Source: Bacteroidaceae bacterium (GTDB lineage: Bacteria > Bacteroidota > Bacteroidia > Bacteroidales > Bacteroidaceae). Taken from it: a stretch of DNA of 32,337 bases. The position numbers were made by a program, and so were the translations under genes. The notes under the pieces were generated by a model. The model saw only the letters and a list, made by a program, of their open reading frames with translations, did no database searches and had not been told where the DNA came from. Shown here one piece after another: positions 1 to 15,720 of this stretch. The stretch covers positions 1 through 32,337 of the forward strand of contig JAFZKA010000014.1 in the NCBI GenBank assembly GCA_017551925.1, in the 5' to 3' direction. Position 1 is the first letter of the stretch, and the number at the start of each line of letters is the position of its first letter.

Positions 1-25
1 GTAAAGAGCCCTTTTTTCAATAAAA

Positions 26-78
26 CATCCCTCTGAGAATCGGATATAACATAGAAAACCGATAAACTCAGAGGGATG
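26..78 (-). terminator. Candidate terminator hairpin after the exporter operon
   Basis: A perfect 12-bp inverted repeat (CATCCCTCTGAG at 26-37, CTCAGAGGGATG at 67-78) encloses a second short stem (ATCGG at 39-43, CCGAT at 59-63). Read on the minus strand the stem is followed by TTTTATTG, a modest U-rich run. On the plus strand the downstream bases are not U-rich. It lies about 130 bp past the stop of the last gene of the minus-strand operon, so an intrinsic terminator for that operon is the likeliest reading. The loop is longer than usual for a terminator. Confidence 0.5.
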
Positions 79-178
79 CTCAAATAAACCATCCTCAAAG
101 GCTTATAAAAATTACACCTTTTTCAGTGGCCTCTTCACAAGCCCACGGGCGGCCATGGTTTCCTATACCTATACCCCT

Positions 179-202
179 AAATGTCCGCAGAAGGAACCAT
201 CC
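179..202 (+). repeat. Left copy of a ~24-bp dispersed repeat
   Basis: The core GTCCGCAGAAGGAACC matches the reverse complement of the sequence at 32302-32325 at 22 of 24 bases. It begins 8 bp after the stop codon of the minus-strand permease gene, so relative to that gene it has the same orientation as the right-hand copy has to its own gene. Beyond it, towards position 120, are short self-complementary GC-rich segments (TGGCC at 127-131 with GGCCA at 151-155, enclosing GCCCACGGGC at 141-150). The arrangement is reminiscent of REP units mobilised by RAYT transposases, but no such transposase is present. The rest of 1-210 holds the hairpin at 26-78 and no gene I can support. Confidence 0.55.
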
Positions 203-210
203 ATATTACA

Positions 211-927
211 TTAGCCCAGGAACTTGCCGCGGTTCTGGAGGCCCAACAACCCTGACATCAGGAATATGATGCCTGCCACTACCATCATGATACGGTTCTT
301 GAGCAGTATGACACCCCATATGGCGGCATTGATGTTTTCAGGCTCCTCATACGGATTAATTGTTACATCCCATACCTTGTTTTCAACAAGCGGAACATTT
401 CCAAGTATCAGAGCCAATATCACCGTGAGCACAGAGAGTACGGCGGCGGCATTTCCGTTGCGTATAAGCGTGGAGTACAGGAAAGCCATATTGCCGAACA
501 GCATTACGGGAATCATAAGTTGCGCCGCCATCAGGAACGGTGCTACCGGATATAGCAGGATTCGCGCCAGAAAAGCGTAAACCACCAGAATAAGGTAAAC
601 CTCAACGTAGATCATAAACAGCCTGAACAGCCATACCTTGTACATATAGTTGGGAATACCGAACAAAAGTTCCAGTATACGATGGTCGGCATCATTCTGG
701 ATTCCGAAGCATGACGGATAGAACACCAGCAGTAGTCCGGGTATGATAAGTTGACTATATACCATGCCATGACTCAAGGTTGTGCCCCGTGATGCAGCAC
801 TGAACATCAGGAAAAAGAACAGAACCAGGCCCACAAGAAGGAACCATATGAACTTGCCGGCAAAGATTATCCTCATGTTGTACATACACAACTTTCCGAA
901 AGATTTTGTAGTCTGTAATACTGACAT
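211..927 (-). CDS. ABC-2 type membrane permease, small (238 aa)
   Basis: A hydrophobic protein with about six predicted membrane helices and a short cytoplasmic N-terminus, the usual size and pattern of an ABC-2 type permease without an ATPase domain. Hydrophobic stretches include residues about 27-45, 60-75, 100-125, 130-152, 160-178 and 212-232. It has no signal peptide and no large soluble domain. It starts 13 bp after the stop of the RND-ABC fusion gene and is the last gene of the operon. The natural inference is that it is the transmembrane partner of the ABC domain carried by that fusion, or of the stand-alone ATPase that opens the operon. Substrate unknown. The family call comes from topology and context, not from a diagnostic motif. 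Confidence 0.75.
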   Translation of the reverse strand: MSVLQTTKSFGKLCMYNMRIIFAGKFIWFLLVGLVLFFFLMFSAASRGTTLSHGMVYSQLIIPGLLLVFYPSCFGIQNDADHRILELLFGIPNYMYKVWLFRLFMIYVEVYLILVVYAFLARILLYPVAPFLMAAQLMIPVMLFGNMAFLYSTLIRNGNAAAVLSVLTVILALILGNVPLVENKVWDVTINPYEEPENINAAIWGVILLKNRIMMVVAGIIFLMSGLLGLQNRGKFLG

Positions 928-940
928 AGTTCAACTTGGT

Positions 941-3900
941 TTAAAGGTTTTTTAATAGGCACAGGTATGCATCCTCAAGGTTAGGTTCAGCAAGCTCAGC
1001 ACCAGGCCACGGACATGTGGGTGATATGTAACGCACCTTTATCTTGTCACCGTCCTGAATGTGGTTGGCAATCAGTTTCTCGTCAAGTTCATCCAGATGA
1101 GATGCCTCAATGTCAAACAGCCATACCTTGTCCTTAGCCAGTTTAACCATATCGTTGGGCTCTCCAAAGTACTTGAGCGAGCCCCTCTCTATCACCACAA
1201 CCTGGTTACATGAACTTGCTATATCCTCAATGATATGGGTTGAGAATATCACAATACGGTCACGGCTCAACTCTACCAGCAGGTTGCGGAACCTGATACG
1301 CTCACGGGGGTCAAGACCGGCAGTAGGCTCATCGACCACAAGGATGCGCGGCAGGTTAAGCAGGATAAGCGCAATACCTATTCTCTGCTTCATACCGCCC
1401 GAGAATGAACCTATCTCAGAGTTCCTCTGCTCAAACATATGTACCGATGTGAGCACATACTCCAACCTTTCCTTACGTACCTTCTCATCGGTAATACCCT
1501 TAAGTATTGCCTGATAATCCAGGAAATCCCATGCACTCATGGACTCGTACATACCGAACTCCTGAGGCAGGAATCCTATAAGGCTCTGCAGTTCCTCCCT
1601 GTACTTGAGGGTATCCATGCCGTTGATGAACACCGTTCCGTAACTCTGGCGCAGGATACCGGTCACAATACGCATGAACGTGGATTTACCGGCTCCATTG
1701 GGGCCCAGCAGACCGAACATACCGCTGTGTATCTCAAAAGACACACCACGCAGGGCCTTGAACGGTTTCTTGCGCTTGCCTATTATAGGAATGCTCTTTA
1801 CAAACAGGAACCATGCCCGCCTCAAACGGGCAGTCTCACCATCCAGACGCTCCACGTTAATGTTGTTGTCATAGAGGTAATCTGATGTCTTGCGGATAAA
1901 GAGTCCCAGCACCCAGACTACAGCGATGAACACCATGAATCCCTTGCTCTCAATGCGGGTGTTCAGGAACAGCATGGTACAAGCGGGCAATACCCAATAG
2001 AGTATTTTCCTGAGTAAAGCCGCTACCCGTGCACCACTCTTGGATTTGAATGAGACATATTCAAGAATAGCCTTGATGATATGGTTTAGGCCGGCAAGCG
2101 TGATGATGGTGGTAAGCAGTATCCAGAACTCCTTCTCAAAATACCATCCTGCAAGATAGCCCGTATATCCGAACACCACGACCTGCCATAAAAGGCTTAC
2201 AAAATCCTTGGCGTGATGGAAACTGCGCGCCAGCCCCAAACGGCGGCGTATGTTGAGCCCGCTGCGCCACTGACGCAGGAACAGACTGTACCAGTCATAT
2301 ACCTTGACCAGGTTACGCACCTCAATCACAATCGGCTCATCAGGTTTGACAATATCCTTGCGGGCAATCCTGACTGAACTCTTTATGAAATATGTCACTC
2401 CGGGAACGGCAAGACACAGAACAATTATGTAAAGAAGTATCTTGAACACTCCGCTCACGGTAGTGAATATCACCAGCAGGCCAACTCCGAACAGTATTGC
2501 ATGCAGTACATGGGTGTAGCGTCCCAGTCCCTTATACCATGCCCTCATATTCTCAAACGATATATAGAGCGTGGGGATAAGCAGCAGAGTAAGTATGGCC
2601 GAGAAAGCCAGACCGCCTATAACCGTCAATGCAAACGGAGCGCCAATGGCACCTGCATACTCATTGTCACCCATAGCCATGGGGATAAGCGTGACTATGG
2701 TGGTGATTGTGGTTATAAAGATAGGTCTGAGTCGGGAGTATCCGCTGGTCATGATTGCACGCATACGGCCGTATCCTCTCCTACGCAAAGTAGATGAGTA
2801 GTCTATCAGTATGATACCGTTGTTTACCACAACACCCAGCAGAATCAGGAATCCGGTCAGGGTATTGGCGTTCATCAGACTGTTACCGGACAGCAGCAGA
2901 GCCAGCAATGAACCTATGGCGGCAAGCGGTATGGAGAACAGCAGAACCAGAGGCGTTGTGAGTGACTCAAATGATGAAGCCAATATCATGAATATAAGTA
3001 TGATAGCCGCCAGTATCAGGAACTTGAACTCACTGGTGGAGTCATCGCCGCGCTGCACCTCAAGAGCCAGTCCCGACGGGAGATTGTAATTGGCAATTAT
3101 ATCGTCAATCTGATCATGATAGTCATCAAGTACATCCTTGGGCAGGTCCTCACTCTGTGATATCGAGTATGTAACGTTCACGCGGCGGTCACGGTTTACG
3201 CGACGTACCTCCGACGGTCCACGGCTGAGACGGATATTGGCTATCTGCTGCAACTCATGGGTTCCGCCGTTTGCATCGGTCACGATTACACGGCGCAAGT
3301 CATCCATGGTCTTCTCCCAGCGACCCATCTCCTCTTCTTCCTCAGTCAGGTCATCCATTATCACTATATCATACTCATCGGTTCCCACCTTGAAACTGGC
3401 TCCGGTACTGGTGGAACGGTTCAGGGAATTCAAGGCTGACGTTATGGCCTGGTTTGTGATATTGTATGATGCAAGTGCCACAGGATCAAAGGTAAGTTGC
3501 ACCTCACGGCGGCCACCGGGATTGTCAACCCTCACGTCACGCACAAACTCCAATTGTTCCAGATAATATCTCAGGTTATTGGATACTATGCGCATGGTTT
3601 CGGTATCAGAGCCCTTTACCACTATTCTCTCAGTGTTGTCACCCACACCCAGAACGCTCATGAAGCGCGTGAGTGAACTCAAGCCCGATGCGCTCTGGTT
3701 TCCGCGGGCATACCCCGGTGTAACGCGTACGTCTATGTCATTCTCCAGGGCAAGTTCATCGCTGAGTTGTTCTACAAGTTGGCTTATGGTCACACCGCCT
3801 TTCTTGTTATAGCCCTCCTGGAGAGTGACAGTTATTGATGCCTGTTCTTCCTGAATACGGCTTATGACATCCTTCTTGTAGATAAGGCTGTCCAGACGGC

Positions 3901-5650
3901 CCTCAAGTGTGGCTGTCGCCTCATCGGTATCATCAATAGTGCTGCCGGTAGGCATTGTGATGTTCACGTTTATCCTGTCACTGTCCACCTGACGGTTCTG
4001 ACCGGTATTGCGTGACAGAGCGAATATGAATGCTATGACCAGAACTGCCACCGCTGTGCCCACTGTCGGTCCCGGCTTGCGCAAAGCAGTCTTGAGCAAC
4101 GTGGAGTACATCTGCAGCGGACGGTCATGGATTGACATCTTCTTGAAAAACACACTGTTGCCGCCTCCACCCCATTCCATCATGGCTGCAGTAGCCATAG
4201 GTATGAATGTTACTGCGACCATAAGTGAGAATATCAGTGTCGATATGATTGAAAAGCCGATGTTCCGACCCAGGAGTTTTATCATAGGCTCATCTGAGAA
4301 CACGAACGGCAGGAACACTGTTACGGTGGTAAGCGTGGACGCAATAAGGGCCTTGCGAACCTCCTTCACACCCTGCAGCGCCGCCAGTCGGGGCGGCATA
4401 CCCATAGAGGCCAGACGGTATATATTCTCAAGCACCACTATACTGCTGTCAAGCAACATACCTATTGCCAACGCCATGCCTATCAGGGTCAGCGTGTTTA
4501 TGGAAATGTTTGCAGCGTAGAATACGTTGAACGCCGATAATATGGATACCGGTATTGACAACGCAATAAAGAACACAAGGCTCAGGTTGCGCAAAAAGAA
4601 CCACAGCACCAGAATAGCCAGAATACCGCCTATAAGTGCAAGTTTTACTATCTGCGATATGTTGTTGCTTATCTGGTCGGCCGAATTGGACTGCACCACA
4701 AGTTGAAGGTCCTGGGCAGCAACCTCACGGTTCACCTCATCAATGCGCTTAAGTGTTCTCTGTGACAGGCTGAGAAGGTTCTCGCCTGACCCGTTGACAA
4801 GAGATACAGAAATGGCATCCATGCCGTTGACACGGCTTATGGTTGTCTCCTCCTTATAGTCAAAGAATACTGTGGCTACATTCTTAAGATACACAGGGCC
4901 CTGTGCAACCACCAGGTTCTCCACCTGCGACACATCATCATAGTTGGCGTCAAGCTGCACGTAGTACTTACGGTCAGGCTCGTTTATGTAACCCAGGAAC
5001 GTGCGTTCCTGATTATACTGGTTAAGTGCCTGGCTTATCTGCGAGTTGGAAATGTGCAATGCCTGCATGGCCTCCGGGTTGGAACGTATCTCGATTGACT
5101 TGACACGACCGCCATAGACCGTCACACCGGCTATGCCGTCTATACTCTCCAACCGCGGAACCACATCCTTATCGACAATAGCCCTCAAGCGGTCAACACC
5201 GCCCGATCCGCGGACCTGGAGTGACATGAACTGGTTGCTTATGCCGTTCACATTAGCCTGCTGGACGTTCACCGTGACATCGGATGGAAAATCAGACCTT
5301 ATGGAACTGATTTTCTCCTGCAACTTGACCGTAGTCATCTTGATATTGGTGCCGCGCTTGAAATCAACCCTAATGGAACCCTGGCGGCCCGACACAGTCG
5401 ATTCCATGTTCTCAACACCACCCACAGCGCTTATGGCTCCCTCGAGTGGAATCACCACCTGCTGCTCCATGTAAGACGGAGTAAGGTCATTTCTGGAATT
5501 GGCCGTAATATACAACTGGGGCAGTTCCGTATTGGGCAGCAACTCTATCGGCAACTGCTTGTACGAGAAATATCCCAGCAGCGTCATTGCCACCAGAAGC
5601 ATGCAGATAGTGACTCTTCGGTCTATAAATGACTTGTTGGAACCGTTCAT
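941..5650 (-). CDS. RND efflux pump fused to an ABC ATPase domain (1569 aa)
   Basis: Residues 1 to about 1035 form a full-length HAE1/AcrB-type RND transporter. It has an N-terminal helix followed by the motif LPIELLPNTELPQL, a TM4 segment GMLLDSSIVVLENI with Asp401 at the AcrB Asp407 position, and a TM10 segment with Asn943-Asn944 where AcrB has Lys940. Two further hydrophobic segments follow at about 1045-1090. The strand VIEVRNLVKVYD (about 1106-1117) looks like the start of an ABC ATPase. About 180 residues with roughly four membrane segments then intervene before the ABC core resumes at FKALRGVSFEI (about 1297). The core has Walker A GPNGAGKST (Lys1322), Q-loop GFLPQEFG, signature FSGGMKQ (about 1415), Walker B ILVVDEP and H-loop STHIIED, all intact. 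The reading frame is open throughout. ATG overlaps the stop of the upstream RND gene as ATGA. The ABC part resembles the ATPase at 14752-15633, so a duplication is likely. Confidence 0.92.
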   Translation of the reverse strand: MNGSNKSFIDRRVTICMLLVAMTLLGYFSYKQLPIELLPNTELPQLYITANSRNDLTPSYMEQQVVIPLEGAISAVGGVENMESTVSGRQGSIRVDFKRGTNIKMTTVKLQEKISSIRSDFPSDVTVNVQQANVNGISNQFMSLQVRGSGGVDRLRAIVDKDVVPRLESIDGIAGVTVYGGRVKSIEIRSNPEAMQALHISNSQISQALNQYNQERTFLGYINEPDRKYYVQLDANYDDVSQVENLVVAQGPVYLKNVATVFFDYKEETTISRVNGMDAISVSLVNGSGENLLSLSQRTLKRIDEVNREVAAQDLQLVVQSNSADQISNNISQIVKLALIGGILAILVLWFFLRNLSLVFFIALSIPVSILSAFNVFYAANISINTLTLIGMALAIGMLLDSSIVVLENIYRLASMGMPPRLAALQGVKEVRKALIASTLTTVTVFLPFVFSDEPMIKLLGRNIGFSIISTLIFSLMVAVTFIPMATAAMMEWGGGGNSVFFKKMSIHDRPLQMYSTLLKTALRKPGPTVGTAVAVLVIAFIFALSRNTGQNRQVDSDRINVNITMPTGSTIDDTDEATATLEGRLDSLIYKKDVISRIQEEQASITVTLQEGYNKKGGVTISQLVEQLSDELALENDIDVRVTPGYARGNQSASGLSSLTRFMSVLGVGDNTERIVVKGSDTETMRIVSNNLRYYLEQLEFVRDVRVDNPGGRREVQLTFDPVALASYNITNQAITSALNSLNRSTSTGASFKVGTDEYDIVIMDDLTEEEEEMGRWEKTMDDLRRVIVTDANGGTHELQQIANIRLSRGPSEVRRVNRDRRVNVTYSISQSEDLPKDVLDDYHDQIDDIIANYNLPSGLALEVQRGDDSTSEFKFLILAAIILIFMILASSFESLTTPLVLLFSIPLAAIGSLLALLLSGNSLMNANTLTGFLILLGVVVNNGIILIDYSSTLRRRGYGRMRAIMTSGYSRLRPIFITTITTIVTLIPMAMGDNEYAGAIGAPFALTVIGGLAFSAILTLLLIPTLYISFENMRAWYKGLGRYTHVLHAILFGVGLLVIFTTVSGVFKILLYIIVLCLAVPGVTYFIKSSVRIARKDIVKPDEPIVIEVRNLVKVYDWYSLFLRQWRSGLNIRRRLGLARSFHHAKDFVSLLWQVVVFGYTGYLAGWYFEKEFWILLTTIITLAGLNHIIKAILEYVSFKSKSGARVAALLRKILYWVLPACTMLFLNTRIESKGFMVFIAVVWVLGLFIRKTSDYLYDNNINVERLDGETARLRRAWFLFVKSIPIIGKRKKPFKALRGVSFEIHSGMFGLLGPNGAGKSTFMRIVTGILRQSYGTVFINGMDTLKYREELQSLIGFLPQEFGMYESMSAWDFLDYQAILKGITDEKVRKERLEYVLTSVHMFEQRNSEIGSFSGGMKQRIGIALILLNLPRILVVDEPTAGLDPRERIRFRNLLVELSRDRIVIFSTHIIEDIASSCNQVVVIERGSLKYFGEPNDMVKLAKDKVWLFDIEASHLDELDEKLIANHIQDGDKIKVRYISPTCPWPGAELAEPNLEDAYLCLLKNL

Positions 5651-8600
5651 TTTCCAGTTATCCTTATTTTGGCGCTTTCAAATACATAATATACACACGG
5701 TATCACCACCAGACTGAGCAGAGTTGAAGTGACAAGACCGCCTATCACGGCAATGGCCATGGGTGAACTCAATGATGAACCTTCACCCAGTCCCAAAGCC
5801 ATAGGCACGAGCGCCAGGATGGTAGTAAGACTGGTCATGAGAATAGGACGGATACGCTGCTGTCCTGCCTCTGCAATGGCGTCGGTAAGACTCAGACCGG
5901 AATCCTTGAGTTGTCCTATGCGGTCCACCAGGATTATTGAGTTGTTGACCGCTATACCGGCCAGCATCACCATTCCTATAATACCCATTATATTTACCGT
6001 TATGCCCGTTATCAGGAACATAAGTATCGCGCCCACCAGAGCCAGAGGAATGGTAAGCAGGATGGTGAACGGATGCAGAAGTGATTCAAACTGCGATGCC
6101 ATCACCATATATACCAGCACTATTGAAAGCAACAGAGCCAGCATAAGGCTGTTCATTGATTCTGCGCGGCGCTCCTCTTCACCTGTTACGGTTATGGAGT
6201 AGTTCTGCGGCAGTTCAATGCCTGACACGGCGTTCCTGACCCTTTGGGCGGCCTTGTCGAGAGATACAGACTCATCTATATCGGCCGTGACGCGTGTCAC
6301 CCTGTTCTGGTTGATACGGTAAATCTCTTTTGGAGCGGTACTCTCGCTTATCTGAGCCAGTTCAATAAGGCGGTAATCCTTCTGGCCTGACGTTATGACC
6401 ATATTGTTCAAGTCTGACAGTGACACACCCGGAACCTTGATGGATATATCCCTCATATCACCCTTGTAATCCATCTGTCCGGCTTCACGTCCGGCCAGAT
6501 GTTGCTGTATCTGGGTGATAATGGTGGATACGTTGATATTGTTCATACCGGCCAGTGCACGGTCCACCGTTATAATAATCTCAGGGGCACCTCCTGCCAG
6601 TGAACTCTCCACATTATACAGACAGTCAATTGAATCGACCGATGCCTTGACCTGAGCGGTAAGGGCGGCCAACAGGTCCAGATCCTCACCCTTGACCTCC
6701 ACTACGAGCGGAGCGTCTTCAGTACCCATCATGGAATTCAGAGAGTTGTCATCCTGAGTGAATGAAAGTTCCATACCCTCAACTCCGTCTATATAGGCAG
6801 AAAGCATCTCGGTAAGAACATCGGGAGTAACAGCCGACGCCTTGGAGAGTTGTATCTTCATGGTTGCAGTGTTCTCTCCCTCAAAATCCAGGTTCTGAGC
6901 AGAAGCGCCGGGCCCTACATGCGTGTAAATGACACACTCCGGATCCTGCGTCAGGTCAAACACCATATTCTCCAGGCTCTCAAGTGTTGACGAAGTACGT
7001 TCCAGATTGGTTCCCTCGGCCATACGGACCTTGACATTTATGGTGTTGTCCTCAGTTTTGGGCATGAATTCGGTGCCCACATACGGCAGCAGGAGAACTG
7101 TGCCGGCCACCAGAATCAATGAGCATACGATTACCCACCAGCGCTTGTTTACAAGCCTCTTAAGGAATGAGGCATAACCCTTGATGTTAACAGAACTGAA
7201 GTTCTTGAGAGGAACAGCCTTCTTGCGCGAGAAAATACGCTCATACAGCGTAGGTATCACAAGGATAGCCACAAAGAGTGATGAGAGCAGTGAGAATGTC
7301 ACGGTCCAAGCCTCGTCCTTGAACAGTTCGCCGGTAGCACCGTGCAGATATACGATAGGCAGGAACACCACAATGGTTGTAAGTGTTGATGCCGATACGG
7401 CGCCACCCACCTCGGATGTACCGGTAATAGCGGCTTCACGCACTGAAAGACCGCGTTCCTGATTCCTGAATATGCTCTCAATTACCACAATGGCATTATC
7501 CACCAGCATTCCCGCACCCAACGCCAATCCACCTAGCGTAAGTATGTTTATGGTCAGGCCGCTGAAGAACATCAGGTTGAATGTGGCTATTATGGAAACA
7601 GGTATTGAAACTGCAACGATAAGGGTTGTCCCCACCCTGCGCAGGAATACAAATAATACAATCACAGCCAGCAAAACACCCAACAGGGCGCTGTTCTTAA
7701 CCTCGCCTATAGAACTGTTTATGAATGTCGCCTGGTCACTTATCACAATAAAGTCATATCCAGGCAATGATTTACGTATCTTGCTGAGGCTTGTCTTTAT
7801 ACCTTCAACAGCCTTGACTGTATTGTAGTCCATCTCCTTGAACACCGATATGCCTATGCTCCGGTTGCCGTTCACCCTCACGATATTCTCAGGGTCACGG
7901 TTTTCAAAGTGAATGGTTGCCACGTCACGCAGGTATATGGGTGCCATACTGGCCGACTCAAACTCGCCCACCTGTCCCGGTGCACTCTCCGTATTTCTGT
8001 AACCCACAATGATATTGCCGAATGCGGTTTCATCGGTCAGTGTATTCGAGCCGGTTACAAGATACTGGAAGCCCTGTTCGGATATCCTGCCTCCGGATAC
8101 CCTCTGGTTGCTCTCCTGGATACGTGACGATATGTTGTCAACGGTTATCCCGAAAGCCTGCAGTTTATAAGGATCAGCATCAATCACCAGATTGGTGAAC
8201 TCGTCGCCGGCTAGTGAAACATCGGCCACGCCCTCAACCCTCATCAGTTCATTGCACACATATGAGTCTGCCACCTTTCGCAACTCGGCCATATCGGTTA
8301 TGTCCGGATTTGAAAAACCCAGAATCATTATGGGCGAAGTGGTAGGATCCTTCTGTGAGATTCTGAGGTCTGTCACACGACTGTCCTGGCTGAAACTGCT
8401 CATGGCCTTCTCCAGATCCAGGAACGCCTCATCCATATTCTTACGCCATGAGTATTCCACCGTTATGCGGGCTGTACCCACTTTTACCACCGAAGAGACA
8501 TTGCGCACGTCACTCTGACGGGCAATCTGAGACTCCATGCTCCTAATGAACTGTTTCTCAATCTCTTCAGGCGGACGCTCACCCGCGTCCAGTTCGACAA

Positions 8601-8739
8601 ACAGACGTGGACTGTTCATACTTGGCAGCAACTCCACGCTCAGCCTGTCATATGATATTTTTCCGAGCAGCAGGATAGCCAGCACCGCCATAGTGACAGT
8701 AACCGGGTTTCTGACAGCCCAACTAACCAATCTTTTCAT
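5647..8739 (-). CDS. RND efflux transporter, HAE1/AcrB type (1030 aa)
   Basis: A normal-length inner-membrane RND pump, expected to use the proton gradient to drive export through an adaptor and an outer-membrane factor. Visible family features are the N-terminal segment ELLPSMNSPRLFVEL after TM1, TM4 segment GMLVDNAIVVIESI with Asp414-Asn415 (Asp at the AcrB Asp407 position), the TM10 segment GIAVNNSIILVDRI with Asn in place of the AcrB Lys940, and the repeated N- and C-terminal halves with large porter loops. Asn-Asn in TM10 is, as far as I know, common in HAE1 proteins outside the classical AcrB group. It begins 10 bp after the adaptor gene and overlaps the RND-ABC fusion gene by 4 bp. Two consecutive RND genes recall mdtB-mdtC, which form a mixed trimer, so a hetero-oligomer with the fused pump is plausible. 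Confidence 0.95.
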   Translation of the reverse strand: MKRLVSWAVRNPVTVTMAVLAILLLGKISYDRLSVELLPSMNSPRLFVELDAGERPPEEIEKQFIRSMESQIARQSDVRNVSSVVKVGTARITVEYSWRKNMDEAFLDLEKAMSSFSQDSRVTDLRISQKDPTTSPIMILGFSNPDITDMAELRKVADSYVCNELMRVEGVADVSLAGDEFTNLVIDADPYKLQAFGITVDNISSRIQESNQRVSGGRISEQGFQYLVTGSNTLTDETAFGNIIVGYRNTESAPGQVGEFESASMAPIYLRDVATIHFENRDPENIVRVNGNRSIGISVFKEMDYNTVKAVEGIKTSLSKIRKSLPGYDFIVISDQATFINSSIGEVKNSALLGVLLAVIVLFVFLRRVGTTLIVAVSIPVSIIATFNLMFFSGLTINILTLGGLALGAGMLVDNAIVVIESIFRNQERGLSVREAAITGTSEVGGAVSASTLTTIVVFLPIVYLHGATGELFKDEAWTVTFSLLSSLFVAILVIPTLYERIFSRKKAVPLKNFSSVNIKGYASFLKRLVNKRWWVIVCSLILVAGTVLLLPYVGTEFMPKTEDNTINVKVRMAEGTNLERTSSTLESLENMVFDLTQDPECVIYTHVGPGASAQNLDFEGENTATMKIQLSKASAVTPDVLTEMLSAYIDGVEGMELSFTQDDNSLNSMMGTEDAPLVVEVKGEDLDLLAALTAQVKASVDSIDCLYNVESSLAGGAPEIIITVDRALAGMNNINVSTIITQIQQHLAGREAGQMDYKGDMRDISIKVPGVSLSDLNNMVITSGQKDYRLIELAQISESTAPKEIYRINQNRVTRVTADIDESVSLDKAAQRVRNAVSGIELPQNYSITVTGEEERRAESMNSLMLALLLSIVLVYMVMASQFESLLHPFTILLTIPLALVGAILMFLITGITVNIMGIIGMVMLAGIAVNNSIILVDRIGQLKDSGLSLTDAIAEAGQQRIRPILMTSLTTILALVPMALGLGEGSSLSSPMAIAVIGGLVTSTLLSLVVIPCVYYVFESAKIRITGK

Positions 8740-8749
8740 CCTTTCAAGT

Positions 8750-9826
8750 TTATCTCTGGATCTTTACCTTTGAACCGTCTCTCAGGGTCTCAAAACCACG
8801 TACTATCAACTGGTCGTCCTTTTCAAGGCCACCAAGCACCTCGACGCTGTTTTTCTCTTCAAGTCCAAGCCTGATCTGCTTTGCCCTGGCTATGCCCTGG
8901 TCAACTACGAACACGATACGTCTGTTGCGCTCGTTGCGGACAATGTTCTTGGGTATAACAATAGTTGAACTGTGACTCTCGGTAACGATGTCCGCCTTGA
9001 CGAACATACCCGGTCTTATGAGCAGGTTCTTGTTGTCAATGACAAGTTTCCCCTTGAATGTACGGGTCTCTGCACTGATAGCCGGAGAGAGTTCTGTAAC
9101 CTCACCAATGATAGTGTCATTTGGAAGGGTGTAATGGGTTATGTATGCCTTCTGACCCACCTTCACCTCGTTGATGGCACTCTCCGGCAGGTTAATCTCC
9201 AGCAACATTGAACTGTAGTCCATAATGGTAACCACCGAGGTACCGCTGTTTACTTTGGCTTCGGCCGAGAAATGCGGCAGATTCACTATCACACCGTCAA
9301 ACGGAGCACGGATGTTCATCTTCTCCAGATTCATCTCGGCATTCTCATAATCCAGACGGGAGTTCATGATCTTAATATCCGAGTTCTTGACCTCAGTCAG
9401 CGTAGCGCCACCCTTTTCATAGAGTGACTTGGTCTTGACCTGCTCCTGCTCAGCCAACTCCAGGTTCAGACGCTTGGTCTCAATAGAGATGCCATTCTCA
9501 TATGACTTGTCCTCTATACGTACTATAAGCGCGCCTTTACGTACTTTGTCACCCAGTTTGTAGGGCTTTCCCGTTGCAGGGTTTTTCTGAAGATGATACT
9601 TGCCGGCCATCTCGGTTGACAGTTCAGCCTCGGCGTTTGACACAGCCGTGCTGTTTGTCGTGAAGATCCTGCTTACAGAACCGTAGGTTATATCAGATAC
9701 CGATACAGGTGTAGGTATCTCATTACGGTTCATCTGGTTCTCTTGCCTGCACCCTGCCATGATGAGAGTGAGTACAGTCAGTGTTAGTGCGCTGATTTCT
9801 GTTTTCATATGCTGTATCTTTTTCAT
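8750..9826 (-). CDS. Periplasmic adaptor (membrane fusion) lipoprotein, RND type
   Basis: A 358-residue HlyD/AcrA-type adaptor. The N-terminus has a signal sequence ending in the lipobox MAGC with Cys26 as the predicted lipidated residue, so the protein should be anchored in a membrane and face the periplasm. The two lipoyl half-motifs are seen around GDKVRKGALIVRI and IRAPFDGVIVNL, with a short charged helical hairpin between them, followed by a beta-barrel region and RPGMFVKADIV. Its role is to bridge the inner-membrane pump(s) to the TolC-like protein encoded just upstream. Its ATG overlaps the upstream TAA stop by one base (TAATG), which suggests coupled translation. A second ATG at residue 7 is an alternative start. 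It is the only adaptor in the operon, so it may serve both the RND and the ABC components. Confidence 0.93.
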   Translation of the reverse strand: MKKIQHMKTEISALTLTVLTLIMAGCRQENQMNRNEIPTPVSVSDITYGSVSRIFTTNSTAVSNAEAELSTEMAGKYHLQKNPATGKPYKLGDKVRKGALIVRIEDKSYENGISIETKRLNLELAEQEQVKTKSLYEKGGATLTEVKNSDIKIMNSRLDYENAEMNLEKMNIRAPFDGVIVNLPHFSAEAKVNSGTSVVTIMDYSSMLLEINLPESAINEVKVGQKAYITHYTLPNDTIIGEVTELSPAISAETRTFKGKLVIDNKNLLIRPGMFVKADIVTESHSSTIVIPKNIVRNERNRRIVFVVDQGIARAKQIRLGLEEKNSVEVLGGLEKDDQLIVRGFETLRDGSKVKIQR

Positions 9827-11331
9827 TATTTCTTCTTTTTGTCAGTACTCTGTTCATATGTAATGGGAACCACGGGTTCACCCTTCTCAAAGTCATACAG
9901 GGTCAGGATCTTGATATTAAGAAGTTGCACCTTGTAATTGATGATAGCCTGTGTGAATGACATCTTGCTGTTTGAAAGCTGGTTCTGGAACTGGTTCATC
10001 TGAAGTCCGGTCAACTCGCCGTTGCGGTAACGCTCCTCATTAAGGTCATATGTAAGTTGGGCGTTTCGCTGGCTCTGCTCGGCTATTGAAATCTGCCCAA
10101 CCAGATTATCCAGGCTACGGCAGGTGCTGCGTACATTCATCTCTATGCTTTTGAGTTCCTCTTCGGCGCTCAATTCAAACATCTCCCTTTCAATCTCGGC
10201 AGCCTTTATACGAGCCTTTCTGGCACCCCAGTCAAAGAGCGGAACGCTGAATGAAATTGCCACACGCGGGTTGTTGGTAGGATTGTCATAGACATGGTTG
10301 AACTCCGAATTATCACCCATGATACCGAGTGAAAGGGATATATTGCCGCTGAAACTGTCATTATCCTTGACCTGTACCATTGACATCTCCTGCTGTTCCC
10401 TTGATATCTGACGCTGTCTGAGTTCAAGCCTGGATGACATGGCACTCTCCAGAGCCTTATCAGGATCCACATATACCGGCTCCGCCTCAATATCGCAAAC
10501 CACTATTATATCCTCATCAAGAGGTATGCCCAAAACCTGCTTGAAATTGTCCTTGGCATTCTCCAGGCTAACCCTCTGATTCTCAAGACTGGAACGGGAC
10601 TGGGCCAGGTTGAGTTCGGCCTGGTAGTATTCGTCTTTTGTAGTGAGGTCAGCCTCAACCTTGTCCTTTATTATGTTGAAGTTCCTCTCGGCATTCTCCA
10701 GTTCCGACTCGCTTATCTCAAGGTTCTGCTGTGACATGAACAGGCTGTAGAACTGGCTGGTTATGTTACGCTCCACGTTGAGCCTCTGCAGGGCATAACT
10801 TATGCGGGCGTTCTCATAGTTCATCTCTATCTGACGCATATTCATCTTGGTCCTGTTATAAGTGAAAATCGGTTGTGTCAGACTCAGGTAAAGACGGTTA
10901 CTGAACGCACGGTTGCTGTTGGTGGTACCTCCTATGGTTGATTCGTTGTTCTGCCATGACAGGCTGTTGTTGAGTGACAGCGTGGCATCGGTCCAAATAA
11001 TGGGCTGCGATATGCTGAACGTACCTGACGATGAGAGCGAACGGTTTGTGTACCAGTCAGAGTAACGGCTGTCGAACTGACGCGACTGGGAGTATGAGAA
11101 CGGCTCCAGGTTAAGCGAGAACCTTGATTTCAATGATGCCCTCTGGGCTATAAGATTCTGCTCGTAACGTTCCATGCTCAAACGCGAGTTTATCAGATCA
11201 GGATTATGCTCGGCGCTGTACTCCAGGGCCTGCTCCATGGTCAGGACAATCTGCGCCCCGGCTCCGGTCTCAAAGGCCGTTGCCGAAGCCAGCGCAAGAA
11301 ATGCCGTAACTAATAGTTTCTTCTTTGTCAT
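9826..11331 (-). CDS. TolC-family outer-membrane efflux protein (501 aa)
   Basis: An outer-membrane channel component of type I / tripartite exporters. After a signal peptide (MTKKKLLVTAFLALASATA, probable cleavage near GAGAQ) it shows the two tandem OEP repeats with long coiled-coil helices, opening with LTMEQALEYSAEHNPDL and containing the second-half motif AISFSVPLFDWGARKARIKAAE. The length fits TolC/OprM relatives. I chose the ATG at 11331. The frame stays open upstream to 11367, but that would overlap the permease gene and place 12 charged residues before an otherwise standard signal peptide. The gene follows the large permease gene by about 25 bp and is followed by the adaptor gene with a one-base overlap. 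It provides the exit duct for the hybrid exporter. Confidence 0.93.
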   Translation of the reverse strand: MTKKKLLVTAFLALASATAFETGAGAQIVLTMEQALEYSAEHNPDLINSRLSMERYEQNLIAQRASLKSRFSLNLEPFSYSQSRQFDSRYSDWYTNRSLSSSGTFSISQPIIWTDATLSLNNSLSWQNNESTIGGTTNSNRAFSNRLYLSLTQPIFTYNRTKMNMRQIEMNYENARISYALQRLNVERNITSQFYSLFMSQQNLEISESELENAERNFNIIKDKVEADLTTKDEYYQAELNLAQSRSSLENQRVSLENAKDNFKQVLGIPLDEDIIVVCDIEAEPVYVDPDKALESAMSSRLELRQRQISREQQEMSMVQVKDNDSFSGNISLSLGIMGDNSEFNHVYDNPTNNPRVAISFSVPLFDWGARKARIKAAEIEREMFELSAEEELKSIEMNVRSTCRSLDNLVGQISIAEQSQRNAQLTYDLNEERYRNGELTGLQMNQFQNQLSNSKMSFTQAIINYKVQLLNIKILTLYDFEKGEPVVPITYEQSTDKKKK

Positions 11332-11356
11332 ATTATTTGTATTTATTTTCTTCGTC

Positions 11357-14300
11357 CTAATTCCCATTTTCTCTTTTAACCAGTCTCACGGCATCGGCCA
11401 CAATCACCCTTATGCCCGACCTGTTGTTAAGTGTAACCTTAACCGTATCAGCCTCAAACCTGAATGAACCCAGAAGGTTCCAGCCATCCTCGGCACGCAA
11501 CATATTCATTGACACATGGTCACTCGTGTTGAACTGTCCTATCTCAAAGTTGTAGTCATTGGTCACCCTGCGGCCGTTGTTGTTATTGTTGTTCCAGTTG
11601 TTATTGTTGTTCCACCTGCGATTACGGTTGTTGTTTTCATACATTGCAGATGCTACGTAGTAATACACGTCATATACTCCCGCAGCCTCCAACGGAATGC
11701 TCCACCTGGCATACTGCGAACCGTCACCCGGCGATATCAGATACGCTGAACGTATATAGTCACCGTAAAGGTTCTGGTCAGTCACCAGGGTCCACTGGCT
11801 GTAAGTGCGCCAATCAGAGAAGCCCTCATACACGAACTCGTTGTTCTTCTCCCTTGACTTGTCTATCCATTTTGACAGATAACCGGTTCTGAGCGGCCTG
11901 GAAAGCGAGAAGAGTTCACTGTTCTCATTATCCACGATTATCTCGCCAGGAAGCGTGTTATCCACTCCACCGCGTACAGAATAAACTCCCTCGGGAGTAA
12001 GGTCTGTACCTGTATATGAGTTCCAGTCCGAGTTGTTCAGGTTAATATCATGCGGCAGATTTGATGAAAGCATGGTGTTGATCCTTATAATACTGGGAGA
12101 ATTGAACCAGTGTGTCACAATCCTGCGGGTTTCATGCGGGTTCACGCCAACCATAATGCTTGTAGGCTTGTCCTCATCACCGGCATTCTCAATCTCATAG
12201 AAAACAAACTCCACATTGACAAATCCCGGATTGTCAGATATGTTCTCTAACGTAACCTCGGCCTGATAGATGTCGGCAGTATCGGTAGTGACCGTGGTTA
12301 TCTGCGGAGTTCCTATCTTGTAGCAGGCCAGCCGGGTTTGTTCACTCCAAGCCTCTATCTTGTCCTGCAGGCTTATTCCCGAATAACTCTGTATCCAGTC
12401 AAGGATTGAATCAAACGATACATTTTCAAATTCCTTCTCCCTTGTCTTGGCAGACATGGAATCAACCATTGACTCATGACCCATAGCCACCGATATCGGA
12501 GCAAAGAAGTCCTTTGTCTTCAGCGCAAGTGCATTATCGGCCAAATCCTCCCATTCCGGATCAGACATGATACGATCAAAATCATATTTTCCCATCAGTA
12601 TCAGGGCCTTCTCGTCCTCAGACAGACCGTTCATCCGCCTCATCCATGCATTTCCGTTATTCTGGTTTGTAGTCGTCATCGTCTCCACCATCCTGTTTGC
12701 CATAGGCCAGTCCGATGAATAGACGTTATACCTGAAATTATAGAACAGAGGACGATAAAAGTATGGATTGTCCACCTGGGTCATTGTCCACTGCCCGTTC
12801 CTGCTGCTGCCGCTCGAAGTGCCTGACTGCATCATGAAAGAAAGGGAATTGTTCAGTATATTCACAAGGATCTCCTTTTCAGACATGTTGTTATTACGGC
12901 GGTTCCAGTTGTTCCGGCCGCTCCACATCCGTTTTGCGTTGCGGAACTGGAATACATTCATATCAAAACCCCTCTCATGAACCAGCGCCATCTCGGGCTG
13001 CAGTTGTTCATATGCCGATGTCCATACACGCCTGTATGATGTAAACTGTACAGGCACCTCCACTATCTGGAAGCGTTTGAACGGATAGGCCATATCGGCC
13101 TGATACTCCATATTCCTGCGCCTGTCACGGATAATGTATGGGATAGTATCGTAGATTGAGTCAAAAACCTCAAACTGATCGTCCCAACGGCCCAGTTCCC
13201 ACACCGTATATTCGGTTGAGTCAACGGTTATTGACTTGGGATAGTAGTCACCTATCATAAGAGATACTGACGGCAGTGAGGACTCCGGTTTGAAAGTGAA
13301 CCTGGTTGAGTCATCATTTGCTGTGCACAAACCCTGTGATATTGGTGTAAGGCCTGGATTGGGAGTCACATTGACAACAAAATCAGTGAAATATGACATC
13401 TGCCACTCGGGACTCTGGTCACTGTATGCCACTCCCGGACGAGGATACCAGTAACTTTCAGGTGTAAGCATGGTAAAGTCCCTGTCCTGGAACAGATAAC
13501 GCTTACCCACGTTCAGCATTGAGAGAGCCTTGACATTCTCAAGCATCTTTTCAGACGAAATATCCAGATAGCAGATACGGTCATCGGCCCGACCGCTGTA
13601 ATCCATTACAATGTTGACGGGCTGGTCTTCAGGCAGTATCTTGTCAAATGAAAGTACAACAAGATGCATCAGACGTTCATATTCCATACCGTGACCGGGA
13701 GCGCTTATGCTGTTGACCCTGAACCCCGGATTGAGTGTGAATACCAGTTGTGAAGTGTTCTCCCTGGGACTTACCGTCATATCGGCTCTCACGCTAAGGG
13801 AATCGCCCATCTGTGTTACGGTAAGTTCGCATGACCGGGCTACAGCACCGCCTTTATGGACATATTCATTGTCCAATTTCACCATATCGGCCCTGTATCT
13901 CTCGTCAACCTTATACAGATGCACATGCCTGTATCCGGCATAAAGGCCTACTGCAATGAACAGCGCTGCGGCAATACGCCACGGAAGCAGACTGTATCTG
14001 GAGTTGGCAAGACGATGGAACAGCGACACGTCTGTAAAAATAAGCCCTATGCCAAGCAACAGATAGCACATTCTATGGTTTATGAGTCTGGGCAATCCGC
14101 TGAAACCCGCAACCACGGACTTGAGCATGGGCAGATTGAATCCGATATAATCAAACAGGTAATAGTACAGGCTGTCAATATAAAAAAGGGTCACGCCTAT
14201 GTAAGCCAGCAGTATCACCATTGTGATAGCCTGGTTGTTCAATATCAGCATAAGGGTGGTTGACAGGCCCACTATGAATACAAGCGTGGGCACGCACAAC

Positions 14301-14752
14301 AGCAGGAAATACCATATATAACTCAGGTAGTCCAATGCAAAGCCGAATTTGATAAGGCTCATAACCAACGCTATCAACGCCACCAGCACATCAAGGATGA
14401 AGAATACCTTAAGCGTAGCCCACATCTTGCCTATCAGATACTCTGCATTGCTGAGCGGACGGGTGTAGAAAACCTCCGACGTATCCAGTTGCTTATCGCG
14501 CTTAAGGTACTCCGATGCCAGGAACACCGAAACTACAGCCTGCCCCACGTTCATGACCAGCATGAACAGATAGGGAATGACTGACCTGTTGACCATCTGA
14601 GGTCGCTGATTGGGATCAAGTATGTATATGGAACCCACAATCACTGCAGCAAACAGTGCCAGAAAGGCAAAGACCTTGAAGAACCATCCACGGACAAGAA
14701 GTTTTGTCTCGTATTTGGAGACTATGCGTATGTTATATAATCCAAGCATCAT
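11357..14752 (-). CDS. ABC-2 type permease with very large extracytoplasmic region (1131 aa)
   Basis: The N-terminal part (about 1-280) has six to seven membrane helices of an ABC-2 permease, including the family-like stretch SEVFYTRPLSNAEYLIGK. About 850 extracytoplasmic residues follow. Their middle part (with SYWYPRPG, LMIGDYYPKS and FQIVEVPVQFTSYRRVW) resembles the M1-peptidase-like module fused to some Bacteroidetes ABC permeases, but I find no HEXXH zinc motif, so it is probably not a peptidase. The last about 120 residues, ending SGIRVIVADAVRLVK, resemble the golvesin/Xly beta-sandwich (putative carbohydrate-binding) domain. They are interrupted by an Asn-rich loop. Stop and start overlap at TGATG, behind AAGGAG. 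ATG at 14752 and ATG at 14749 are both possible, and 14749 gives better ribosome-site spacing. The gene pairs with the ATPase directly upstream. Domain calls beyond the permease part are inference from motif resemblance. Confidence 0.85.
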   Translation of the reverse strand: MMLGLYNIRIVSKYETKLLVRGWFFKVFAFLALFAAVIVGSIYILDPNQRPQMVNRSVIPYLFMLVMNVGQAVVSVFLASEYLKRDKQLDTSEVFYTRPLSNAEYLIGKMWATLKVFFILDVLVALIALVMSLIKFGFALDYLSYIWYFLLLCVPTLVFIVGLSTTLMLILNNQAITMVILLAYIGVTLFYIDSLYYYLFDYIGFNLPMLKSVVAGFSGLPRLINHRMCYLLLGIGLIFTDVSLFHRLANSRYSLLPWRIAAALFIAVGLYAGYRHVHLYKVDERYRADMVKLDNEYVHKGGAVARSCELTVTQMGDSLSVRADMTVSPRENTSQLVFTLNPGFRVNSISAPGHGMEYERLMHLVVLSFDKILPEDQPVNIVMDYSGRADDRICYLDISSEKMLENVKALSMLNVGKRYLFQDRDFTMLTPESYWYPRPGVAYSDQSPEWQMSYFTDFVVNVTPNPGLTPISQGLCTANDDSTRFTFKPESSLPSVSLMIGDYYPKSITVDSTEYTVWELGRWDDQFEVFDSIYDTIPYIIRDRRRNMEYQADMAYPFKRFQIVEVPVQFTSYRRVWTSAYEQLQPEMALVHERGFDMNVFQFRNAKRMWSGRNNWNRRNNNMSEKEILVNILNNSLSFMMQSGTSSGSSRNGQWTMTQVDNPYFYRPLFYNFRYNVYSSDWPMANRMVETMTTTNQNNGNAWMRRMNGLSEDEKALILMGKYDFDRIMSDPEWEDLADNALALKTKDFFAPISVAMGHESMVDSMSAKTREKEFENVSFDSILDWIQSYSGISLQDKIEAWSEQTRLACYKIGTPQITTVTTDTADIYQAEVTLENISDNPGFVNVEFVFYEIENAGDEDKPTSIMVGVNPHETRRIVTHWFNSPSIIRINTMLSSNLPHDINLNNSDWNSYTGTDLTPEGVYSVRGGVDNTLPGEIIVDNENSELFSLSRPLRTGYLSKWIDKSREKNNEFVYEGFSDWRTYSQWTLVTDQNLYGDYIRSAYLISPGDGSQYARWSIPLEAAGVYDVYYYVASAMYENNNRNRRWNNNNNWNNNNNNGRRVTNDYNFEIGQFNTSDHVSMNMLRAEDGWNLLGSFRFEADTVKVTLNNRSGIRVIVADAVRLVKRENGN
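11576..11637 (-). repeat. Asn-codon tract with a perfect 18-bp tandem duplication
   Basis: Inside the golvesin-like domain of the large permease the coding strand runs through AAC/AAT codons. Positions 11579-11614 are two exact adjacent copies of an 18-bp unit encoding Trp followed by five Asn. The tract encodes a Trp/Asn/Arg-rich loop. Because the unit is a multiple of three, gain or loss by slippage would keep the frame and change loop length by six residues. Confidence 0.85.
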
Positions 14753-15633
14753 CACTCCTTATCCCTTATTTCTGTAAAATAGACATATGCATGCTCCAGG
14801 TTGGGCGGATAACTGACCGCATCATATCCCGGCATGCTCTTTGCCACCACCTGGATATCCCATCCCAGACCATGAGGTATGGTTGAGATAACGGCATATT
14901 TCTGATTAATCTCGGCATACTGTTCATTGGTGACCTTAAGACGCCACACCTTGCCCTCGGTCTCCTTAAGCATTCCTGCAGGTGATCCCCTGAACATGAC
15001 CCGACCCTGGTTGAGCATAGCCATTTCTGTACATGAACTTGATATGTCGCCGACTATATGTGTTGACAGTATTATTGTGGTATCCTTTGAACTGGCCTCA
15101 CTGAGCAGGTTACGGAACCTTATGCGTTCCTCAGGGTCCAATCCGGTGGTAGGTTCATCAACCACCAGGACCAAAGGCTTGTGAATGAGAGCCTGAGCAA
15201 TACCAAGACGTCTCTTCATACCACCTGAAAGATTCTGCGCATAACGGTCGCGGGCCTCATACAGGCCCACCTGCTCAAGCATAGCATCAACCGCCTTGCC
15301 TCGCTCTGCTGAATTTGTCATACCTGTAAGCGCCGCAGCGTATTCCAGGAATTCGCGGACCTTGTACTTGGCAAAGAAACGGAAATCCTGCGGCAGATAA
15401 CCCAATATGCGTCGCACCTCCTTGCGCTGCGTGCGTATATCATAACCGCACACGTCAATCTGACCCTCAGTGGGTTCCATCAGTGTTACCAATATGCGCA
15501 TCAGAGTTGACTTTCCTGCACCGTTCGGCCCCAGAAGGCCGAACATGCCTGAAGGAATCTCAAGGTTAATATCAGTCAGTGCTCTCTTGCCGTTAGGATA
15601 ATAATGGCTTAAGCCTTTTATAGTTATAGACAT
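14752..15633 (-). CDS. ABC transporter ATP-binding protein (293 aa)
   Basis: A cytoplasmic ATPase subunit of an ABC-2 type exporter. All motifs are intact: Walker A GPNGAGKST with Lys41, Q-loop GYLPQDF, signature LSGGMKRR, Walker B LVLVVDEPTTGLDP, and H-loop STHIVGDI. About 70 residues beyond the nucleotide-binding core form a C-terminal extension ending in NLEHAYVYF. Several stretches (GMFGLLGPNGAGKST, ERIRFRNLL, STHI..DI.SSC, NLE.AY) are shared with the ABC domain at the C-terminus of the RND fusion protein in the same operon, which points to duplication and suggests the two could pair. It is the first gene of the seven-gene operon and overlaps the permease start, its probable membrane partner. 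Confidence 0.95.
   Translation of the reverse strand: MSITIKGLSHYYPNGKRALTDINLEIPSGMFGLLGPNGAGKSTLMRILVTLMEPTEGQIDVCGYDIRTQRKEVRRILGYLPQDFRFFAKYKVREFLEYAAALTGMTNSAERGKAVDAMLEQVGLYEARDRYAQNLSGGMKRRLGIAQALIHKPLVLVVDEPTTGLDPEERIRFRNLLSEASSKDTTIILSTHIVGDISSSCTEMAMLNQGRVMFRGSPAGMLKETEGKVWRLKVTNEQYAEINQKYAVISTIPHGLGWDIQVVAKSMPGYDAVSYPPNLEHAYVYFTEIRDKE
14755..14760 (-). promoter_or_regulatory. Strong Shine-Dalgarno site at ATPase/permease junction
   Basis: AAGGAG lies immediately before TGATGATG on the minus strand, where TGA stops the ATPase gene and two ATGs are available for the permease. The spacing is 2 bases to the ATG at 14752 and 5 bases to the ATG at 14749. Such a consensus site is uncommon among Bacteroidetes genes and suggests efficient coupled translation of the two ABC subunits. 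Confidence 0.6.
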
Positions 15634-15651
15634 GCAGTGTCGTATTTTTCA

Positions 15652-15679
15652 CAAAATTACGGTCATTATATGAAATGAC
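15652..15679 (-). promoter_or_regulatory. Predicted promoter and possible operator of the exporter operon
   Basis: On the minus strand TAATTTTG (15659 down to 15652) matches the Bacteroidetes -7 element TAnnTTTG, about 19 bp before the ATPase start codon. A TTG that could serve as -33 element lies 23 bp further upstream (15685-15683), slightly far. Directly upstream of the -7 box is a perfect 6-bp inverted repeat, GTCATT at 15662-15667 and AATGAC at 15674-15679, in a position suited to a repressor or activator. No terminator was seen between the GH9 gene and this site, so read-through from GH9 is also possible. Confidence 0.45.
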
Positions 15680-15720
15680 TTACAAATTAGAATCAACAAG
15701 TCTTAAGAACCATTAATAAA

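Follow-up and report, generated by a model that had tools for sequence, protein, structure and literature searches.

The resistance-nodulation-division (RND) pump AcrB is a homotrimer that has no ATPase. In the available part of PMC8277102, tripartite exporters are sorted by their motor into those driven by an ATP-binding cassette (ABC), an RND, or a major facilitator superfamily (MFS) component, and MdtBC, according to the accessible portions of PMC4462101 and PMC12802153, is active as a B2C heterotrimer. The locus described here carries an ABC motor and an RND pump on one polypeptide, named RND2::NBD2 after its RND and nucleotide-binding domains (NBD), within a seven-gene set that is kept across the order Bacteroidales and in four genomes outside it. 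The fusion gene lies on the minus strand at 941..5650 of a stretch of 32,337 nucleotides, referred to below as the window, which comes from a Bacteroidaceae bacterium (assembly GCA_017551925.1, contig JAFZKA010000014.1, positions 1 to 32,337). All window coordinates given below are on the minus strand unless the plus strand is indicated.

The RND::ABC Fusion Protein

RND2::NBD2 is encoded by a single uninterrupted frame of 1569 residues that starts with ATG and contains no internal stop. Its RND domain (residues 7–1032, 2555..5632) is matched by the Pfam family ACR_tran over model positions 4–1020 of 1021, that is, nearly end to end, with 545.5 bits against a cut-off of 28, and the codon of Asp401, which aligns with D407 of AcrB, occupies positions 4448–4450. 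About 265 residues lead from the RND domain to the core of NBD2 (residues 1298–1569, 944..1759), assigned from Pfam and motifs, in which ABC_tran matches residues 1300–1444 with 88.8 bits (cut-off 25). The core carries Walker A (GPNGAGKS, residue 1316), the signature (FSGG, residue 1416), and Walker B (ILVVDE, residue 1436), as well as an intact Q-loop and H-loop. With K[ST] accepted for Walker A and [FY]SGG for the signature, all five motifs are kept in 26/26 aligned NBD2 sequences and in 17/17 sequences of NBD1, the stand-alone ATPase of the same cluster, so neither NBD looks like a dead partner. The original prediction, made from the letters of the window, had described a complete RND pump with Asp401 that continues without a stop into a complete nucleotide-binding domain, and this description stands in all three respects, with full-length frames found in relatives as well.

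Searched for by itself across the order, the RND–ABC junction turned up in 52 of 393 genomes, representing 33 of 207 genera. Stop-to-stop frames of 1515–1640 residues are present in 44 of these genomes, the frames of the remaining eight run off contig ends by their coordinates, and no case of split RND and ABC genes was seen among the 52, the eight contig-end-cut ones included. The junction is also found in 13 of 201 genomes of the family, in 3 of 295 genomes of a class draw, and in 6 of 395 genomes of a phylum draw, four of the latter six being outside the order; both draws include genomes of the order, and some loci are the same records met twice (for example, L130/L061 and L131/L046). Among 29 loci on named contigs, which derive mostly from rumen and gut metagenome-assembled genomes (MAGs) and include one from Rikenellaceae, 26 contain an intact full-length fusion, two are cut by a contig end, and one, L060 (MAG UBA1179), has a fusion broken by several frame changes, with its channel gene split as well. 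The breaks in L060, as well as a permease gene (TMD1, described below) found in two pieces in L139, are due either to draft-assembly error or to decay. The frame is continuous in relatives through the region corresponding to 2300–2550, where the prediction placed a possible interruption; a stop or frameshift in related genomes, which it took as the sign of a false fusion, was not seen among the 52 genomes of the order, eight of them cut by contig ends, and among the 29 named-contig loci frame changes were met in L060 alone.

Nonsynonymous divergence (dN) is well below synonymous divergence (dS) in the RND part, in the extra hydrophobic segments, and in the NBD (7/9 compared relatives with computable dS). 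In L038, for example, dN values of 0.016, 0.030, and 0.022 for these three parts stand against dS values of 0.56, 0.42, and 0.42. The fusion is confirmed as real and not an artefact.

Hydrophobic Segments Inserted into NBD2

The region that joins the RND domain to the ABC core contains about six hydrophobic segments, arranged as two segments, a basic stretch, and four further segments, with borders placed by eye from hydropathy and loop charge. The first two follow the twelfth transmembrane helix (TM12) of the RND domain (approximately residues 1044–1090, 2381..2521). After them comes the stretch IEVRNLVKVY (residues 1109–1118, 2297..2326), which matches the first strand and the A-loop tyrosine of NBD1 (residues 3–12), and the insert that follows (residues 1119–1297, 1760..2296) comprises the basic stretch and approximately four hydrophobic segments. 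When a position matrix built from 17 NBD1 sequences was scanned over the linkers of the fusions, this match was the top site in 26/26 of them, at the corresponding place and directly ahead of the insert. Its score was reached by one of 1000 shuffles for the window protein, by 31 per 1000 for the weakest member, L077, and by 0 to 5 per 1000 for the others. Because the first strand precedes them, approximately four of the six segments interrupt NBD2, separating this strand from the part with Walker A. Hydrophobic segments between the RND and ABC parts had been predicted and are indeed present, but the location of most of them within NBD2 had gone unnoticed. We know of no precedent for hydrophobic segments at this place in an ABC ATPase.

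Two of the segments are sensitive to the hydropathy line of 1.5 that was applied. The segment at residues 1150–1172 reaches 1.36 in the window protein, under the line, and is above it in 18/26 relatives. The one near residues 1213–1232 exceeds the line only with borders 1211–1229, and with the borders used it passes in 11/26. A profile search of the extra segments against the PDB returned nothing below E 1.6, and there was no consistent Pfam match among the 26 members, only scattered matches in single members (best E 0.0021, 1/26) and one family that matches in 2/26. Comparison of the segments and the insert with TMD1 and TMD2, the putative permease subunits of the cluster, likewise gave no clear similarity. 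A split ABC-2 domain was considered as the origin of the segments and rejected for want of a match to TMD1 or TMD2, to the PDB, or consistently to Pfam. Judged from their sequences, the extra segments are more than a linker and constitute a conserved membrane domain for which no relatives are recognised.

The A-loop region of ABC ATPases is where the adenine of ATP should stack. Since the insert adjoins this expected stacking site, it would be a natural point of coupling between ATP binding and the membrane.

The Seven-Gene Cluster

The genes of the cluster follow each other in the order NBD1-TMD1-TolC-adaptor-RND1-RND2::NBD2-TMD2, with four overlaps of 1–11 bases in the window. The first gene encodes NBD1 (293 residues, 14752..15633; ABC_tran, 113 bits), and the upstream spacer (15634..15720) contains, at 15652–15659, the sequence TAATTTTG, which resembles what we take to be the consensus of the Bacteroides -7 element. 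TMD1 (1132 residues, 11357..14755) combines an ABC-2-like membrane part, a periplasmic region resembling M1 peptidases, and a C-terminal domain similar to Golvesin and xanthan lyase. The TolC-type outer-membrane channel (9826..11367; Pfam OEP, 164.9 bits) is followed by the periplasmic adaptor, or membrane fusion protein (8750..9826), which matches NCBIfam RND_mfp above the cut-off and Pfam HlyD_D23 and has an N terminus that, read by eye, is lipobox-like. RND1, the partner RND (1030 residues, 5647..8739; ACR_tran, 713 bits), overlaps the fusion gene by four bases, and the last gene encodes TMD2 (238 residues, 211..927), a hydrophobic protein that may be an ABC-2-type membrane subunit, as suggested weakly by its hydropathy.

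The complete set in the same order is present in 33 of the 37 fetched loci (16/20, 5/5, and 12/12 in three sets). The set of five consists of phylum-draw genomes, four of them outside the order. In the set of twelve, a contig end truncates NBD1 of L134, TMD1 of L139 is split in two, and some TMD2 genes extend past the limit of the fetched stretch. RND1 directly precedes the fusion in 37/37 loci. NBD1 is present in 33/37; three of the other four loci, L068, L070, and L084, are cut before it, their contigs beginning inside the cluster. No further constant neighbour was seen in the fetched flanks. The flank families common to at least three loci, namely a glycoside hydrolase of family 9 (GH9) and two others, are all confined to the genus of the window, and one further family occurs in L093, L138, and L141 at varying sites. 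The GH9-type gene (15721..18357) is the immediate upstream neighbour of the cluster, with the same orientation, and precedes it in 6/6 loci of the genus that reach that far; the short upstream flanks available for other lineages do not show it. As far as the flanks reach, it occurs in this one genus only, and the enzyme was therefore left out of the proposed machine.

Elsewhere on the contig, a gene on the plus strand at the opposite end (30853–32301) appears by eye to encode two ABC ATPase domains with no obvious membrane part, and another on the plus strand (22520–23908), within a run of lipid A genes, appears by eye to be an LpxC-FabZ fusion, an arrangement common in Bacteroidota.

ABC Subunits and Their Two-Gene Relatives

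In a tree of NBDs, a single clade (support 100/99) unites NBD1 and NBD2 with their counterparts from five two-gene operons, apart from 28 other NBDs. NBD1 itself is not a single clade in this tree. The residue after the GLDP motif, near the D-loop, is Glu or Asp in 17/17 NBD1 sequences, Arg in 26/26 NBD2 sequences, and Ala in 5/5 relatives, and this split between acidic residues and arginine might be the pattern of two partners meeting there.

TMD1 of the window matches Golvesin_C above the cut-off and ABC2_membrane_4 only below it, and it has no match to M1 peptidases. Across the family, at E 0.01, ABC2_membrane_2 is found in 14/18 members, Peptidase_M1 in 7/18, and Golvesin_C in 18/18, and in a search of the PDB the family profile hits a xanthan lyase at E 4.8e-6 and M1 peptidases at E values down to 0.00014. 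The zinc motif HEXXH is absent from 17/18 members, and its sole occurrence, at residue 885 of L067, was judged to be off the expected site. TMD1 has an M1-like build that lacks HEXXH, and for this reason it looks like an ABC permease with a peptidase turned into a dead, perhaps binding, domain. The TMD2 protein of the window has no Pfam match, and among the 25 members of its family there are only weak ones, to ABC2_membrane_3 in two, to ABC2_membrane_4 in one, and to Acyl_transf_3 in four.

The two-gene operons (L095–L099), found in five Bacteroidota genomes, consist of an ABC ATPase and an ABC-2/Peptidase_M1 permease. Their permeases match Peptidase_M1 in 5/5 cases and ABC2 weakly in 4/5, and HEXXH is intact in 5/5, so the peptidase is active-looking. 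Beside these pairs no RND or TolC-type gene was recognised, only one adaptor-like fragment at the edge of L095. A literature search aimed at such ABC/M1 permease operons found no published description. In L099, a frame of 1324 residues was considered as a second ABC fusion and rejected: its first 1000 residues have no hydrophobic segments, an odd composition, and no Pfam match, and it looks like a chance open frame. An anti-phage role for the cluster was rejected as well, the PADLOC matches of the fusion being confined to the ATPase region and the three other scanned proteins having none.

The RND Pair and the Proton Relay

The equivalents of AcrB D407, R971, and T978 are kept in 14/14 fusions and in 14/14 RND1 proteins. 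In turn, D408 and K940 are replaced in all of these proteins, mostly by asparagine; in the fusion of the window they correspond to S402 and N943. In AcrB, exchange of D408 for Asn or of K940 for Ala abolishes both proton translocation and efflux (PMC4359379). The covalent union of a proton-driven and an ATP-driven engine, as originally proposed, is borne out by sequence and conservation as far as the joining itself is concerned, but its proton half is less secure with both D408 and K940 replaced.

In a quick tree of 59 RND proteins, with support from the Shimodaira–Hasegawa-like approximate likelihood ratio test (SH-aLRT) and no bootstrap, all RND1 sequences fall into one clade and all RND2 sequences into another, each with support of 100, and an old pairing of the two is possible.

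Two observations on other RND genes can be added. In the genome of the window, contig C111 (L176, 426–7726) carries another operon in which an adaptor-like gene accompanies two RND genes in tandem; their relay residues are replaced too, and no ABC gene was recognised in the vicinity. RND genes of 1313–1486 residues with C-terminal extensions, perhaps RND-TolC fusions, occur in other members of the phylum (L100, L103, L107, L120, and L125).

A Possible Dual-Engine Exporter and the Alternatives

We propose that the seven genes encode a single export complex that spans both membranes and draws on two energy sources, built around a 2:1 RND trimer and an NBD1-NBD2 pair, a reading that we regard as a real possibility while stopping short of calling it probable. 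NBD1 would pair with NBD2, and this mixed ATPase would power an ABC-2-type membrane unit made up of TMD1 and TMD2; two copies of RND1 would join one copy of the fusion in a mixed trimer of the MdtB2C kind, leaving each trimer with a single NBD2 to match one NBD1. Cargo may be held in the periplasm by TMD1, through its Golvesin-like domain and its dead M1-like one, and the adaptor and the TolC channel would take it outward. Binding of ATP at NBD2, the A-loop of which is at the root of the inserted segments, could be transmitted by way of the extra membrane domain to the RND trimer, with ATP turnover helping to drive or gate the RND cycle; coupling to protons may persist through the one relay aspartate that is left. 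The conflict noted at the outset, that an RND trimer of fusions would carry three ABC domains where a simple dimer needs two, was a fair concern; the way out suggested with it, through the stand-alone ATPase and the neighbouring RND, fits the gene set, and in the mixed assembly that we infer, a 2:1 trimer would offer one NBD2 for one NBD1 and thereby resolve the puzzle. One complex is the simplest arrangement that accommodates the gene set. In its favour are the shared gene order of 33/37 loci, the place of RND1 before the fusion in 37/37, the single clades of RND1 and of RND2, the joint clade of the NBDs, the intact motifs of both ATPases, the contrasting residues after GLDP, the precedent of MdtB2C, and the first strand placed ahead of the insert in 26/26 fusions. 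The fusion, the insert, the ATPase motifs, and the near-constant gene set are observed directly, whereas stoichiometry, NBD pairing, coupling, proton use, and cargo are inferred.

In a stronger form of this proposal, the rotary cycle of the RND trimer is itself driven or gated by ATP turnover at the mixed NBD pair, acting directly through the membrane domain inserted in NBD2, and the relay is reduced to one aspartate; this would be a fourth kind of tripartite exporter. We consider it doubtful at present. Should the RND cycle indeed be driven by ATP, RND pumps could no longer be said to depend solely on the proton gradient, and a natural system would be at hand for testing whether rotary cycling requires the D408/K940 relay.

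Several observations weigh against the proposed exporter. With a midpoint root, NBD2 groups with the NBDs of the two-gene operons (100/100) and not with NBD1, and the profile of TMD2, a family with weak support, does not clearly match that of TMD1 (E 0.06). The sisterhood of RND1 and RND2 is an unresolved fork (89) that also holds two RNDs of the same genome, themselves another tandem pair on long branches. The two proteins share 28.2% identity, as compared with 49.9% between MdtB and MdtC, and they do not group with MdtBC, which stand together elsewhere in the tree. Both D408 and K940 are also missing from 9 of the 28 other compared RNDs, and around the five of these nine with Asn at K940, to which the neighbour check was applied (the four others having extended C-terminal parts), no ABC gene was recognised. 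Since RNDs without a recognised ABC neighbour show relay loss too, this loss alone is no pointer to ATP drive, and its use as proof of such drive was rejected. Finally, L079 has TMD1 through the fusion, and over the extent of its contig neither end gene is found: a gene that by eye is transposase-like (3–542, minus strand of that contig) follows the fusion in the place of TMD2, no TMD2 appears before the contig end, and there is no NBD1 in the 385 bases left upstream. Either an insertion beside the cluster or a loss of TMD2 would account for this arrangement.

The main rival to the proposed exporter, which is somewhat unlikely in our judgement, is that two engines work in series and are only tethered. 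An ordinary ABC exporter of NBD1, NBD2, TMD1, and TMD2 would move the cargo across or out of the inner membrane and hand it to an RND trimer, still driven by protons through D401, that passes it on to TolC; the fusion would keep the two pumps side by side, and ATP would not drive the RND cycle. The constancy of the D407, R971, and T978 equivalents in both RNDs is what such a proton-driven pump would show, other RNDs that share the relay pattern but have no recognised ABC gene around them presumably work, and proteins of the TMD1 family own an ABC-2-like membrane part. However, the segments inserted in NBD2 beside its A-loop would exceed what a tether needs, and replacement of D408 by Asn or of K940 by Ala halts proton translocation in AcrB, as reported in the accessible portion of PMC4359379.

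A homotrimer of the fusion, with RND1 forming a separate trimer, appears quite unlikely. Its three NBD2 domains would recruit three NBD1 subunits, yielding three ABC pairs per RND trimer. In its favour, both RNDs retain the stretch aligned with residues 200–250 of AcrB, presumably the arm that reaches into the neighbouring protomer, and pumps of the hydrophobe/amphiphile efflux (HAE-1) type are, in the available part of PMC8277102, homotrimers, with heterotrimers rare. The invariable position of RND1 beside the fusion, as well as the presence of a single adaptor gene and a single channel gene for both RNDs, speaks against separate trimers, and three sets of TMD1 and TMD2 beneath one trimer would be crowded.

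NBDs can also regulate instead of drive, and NBD2, placed at the end of an RND chain and carrying an unusual insert, could sense ATP or lock the pump via the inserted segments without powering it. We find this improbable, as the Walker B glutamate, the H-loop, and the signature are kept in 26/26 fusions, as in an ATP-hydrolysing enzyme, and the NBD and RND parts have similarly low dN values. An assembly or frame artefact, in which separate RND and ABC genes are misread as one, might be suggested by the broken frames of L060 and is practically untenable, being refuted by the intact fusions of relatives (26/29 named-contig loci, no split among the 52 genomes, eight of them cut) and opposed by the first strand of the NBD sitting ahead of the inserted segments.

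Comparison with Known Exporters

The closest precedent for one fusion per trimer is MdtABC-TolC of E. coli, which also has two tandem RND genes and one adaptor. Unlike the fusion and RND1, MdtB and MdtC retain D408 and K940, belong to a separate clade, and have no ABC domain. The HAE-1 systems of the AcrAB-TolC type share with this locus the full ACR_tran domain, the adaptor, and the TolC-type channel in one operon, as well as the residues equivalent to D407, R971, and T978, whereas D408 and K940 of AcrB are replaced in the fusion and in RND1. MacAB-TolC and VarACDEF resemble it in combining an ABC motor with an adaptor and a TolC-type channel (available text of PMC5595328). MacB, however, has four membrane helices and an N-terminal NBD according to the same text. 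It has no RND, and at E 0.001 neither the fusion nor RND1 nor TMD1 has a Pfam match to the periplasmic or FtsX-like domains of the MacB type. The two-gene operons have NBDs of the NBD1/NBD2 clade and a permease of a build similar to that of TMD1, but their M1 zinc motif is intact in all five and no RND or TolC-type gene was recognised alongside. GldA-type and DrrA-type ABC ATPases are among the best NCBIfam matches of both NBDs, yet with scores far below the curated cut-offs.

No description of the fusion, of the ABC/M1 permease, or of ABC-RND hybrids was recognised in the open-licence literature of PubMed Central, although the domain order may be listed in protein annotation databases. Most parts of the locus come from known families, and what is new is their combination, the insert in NBD2, and the near-constant gene set in which the fusion is found.

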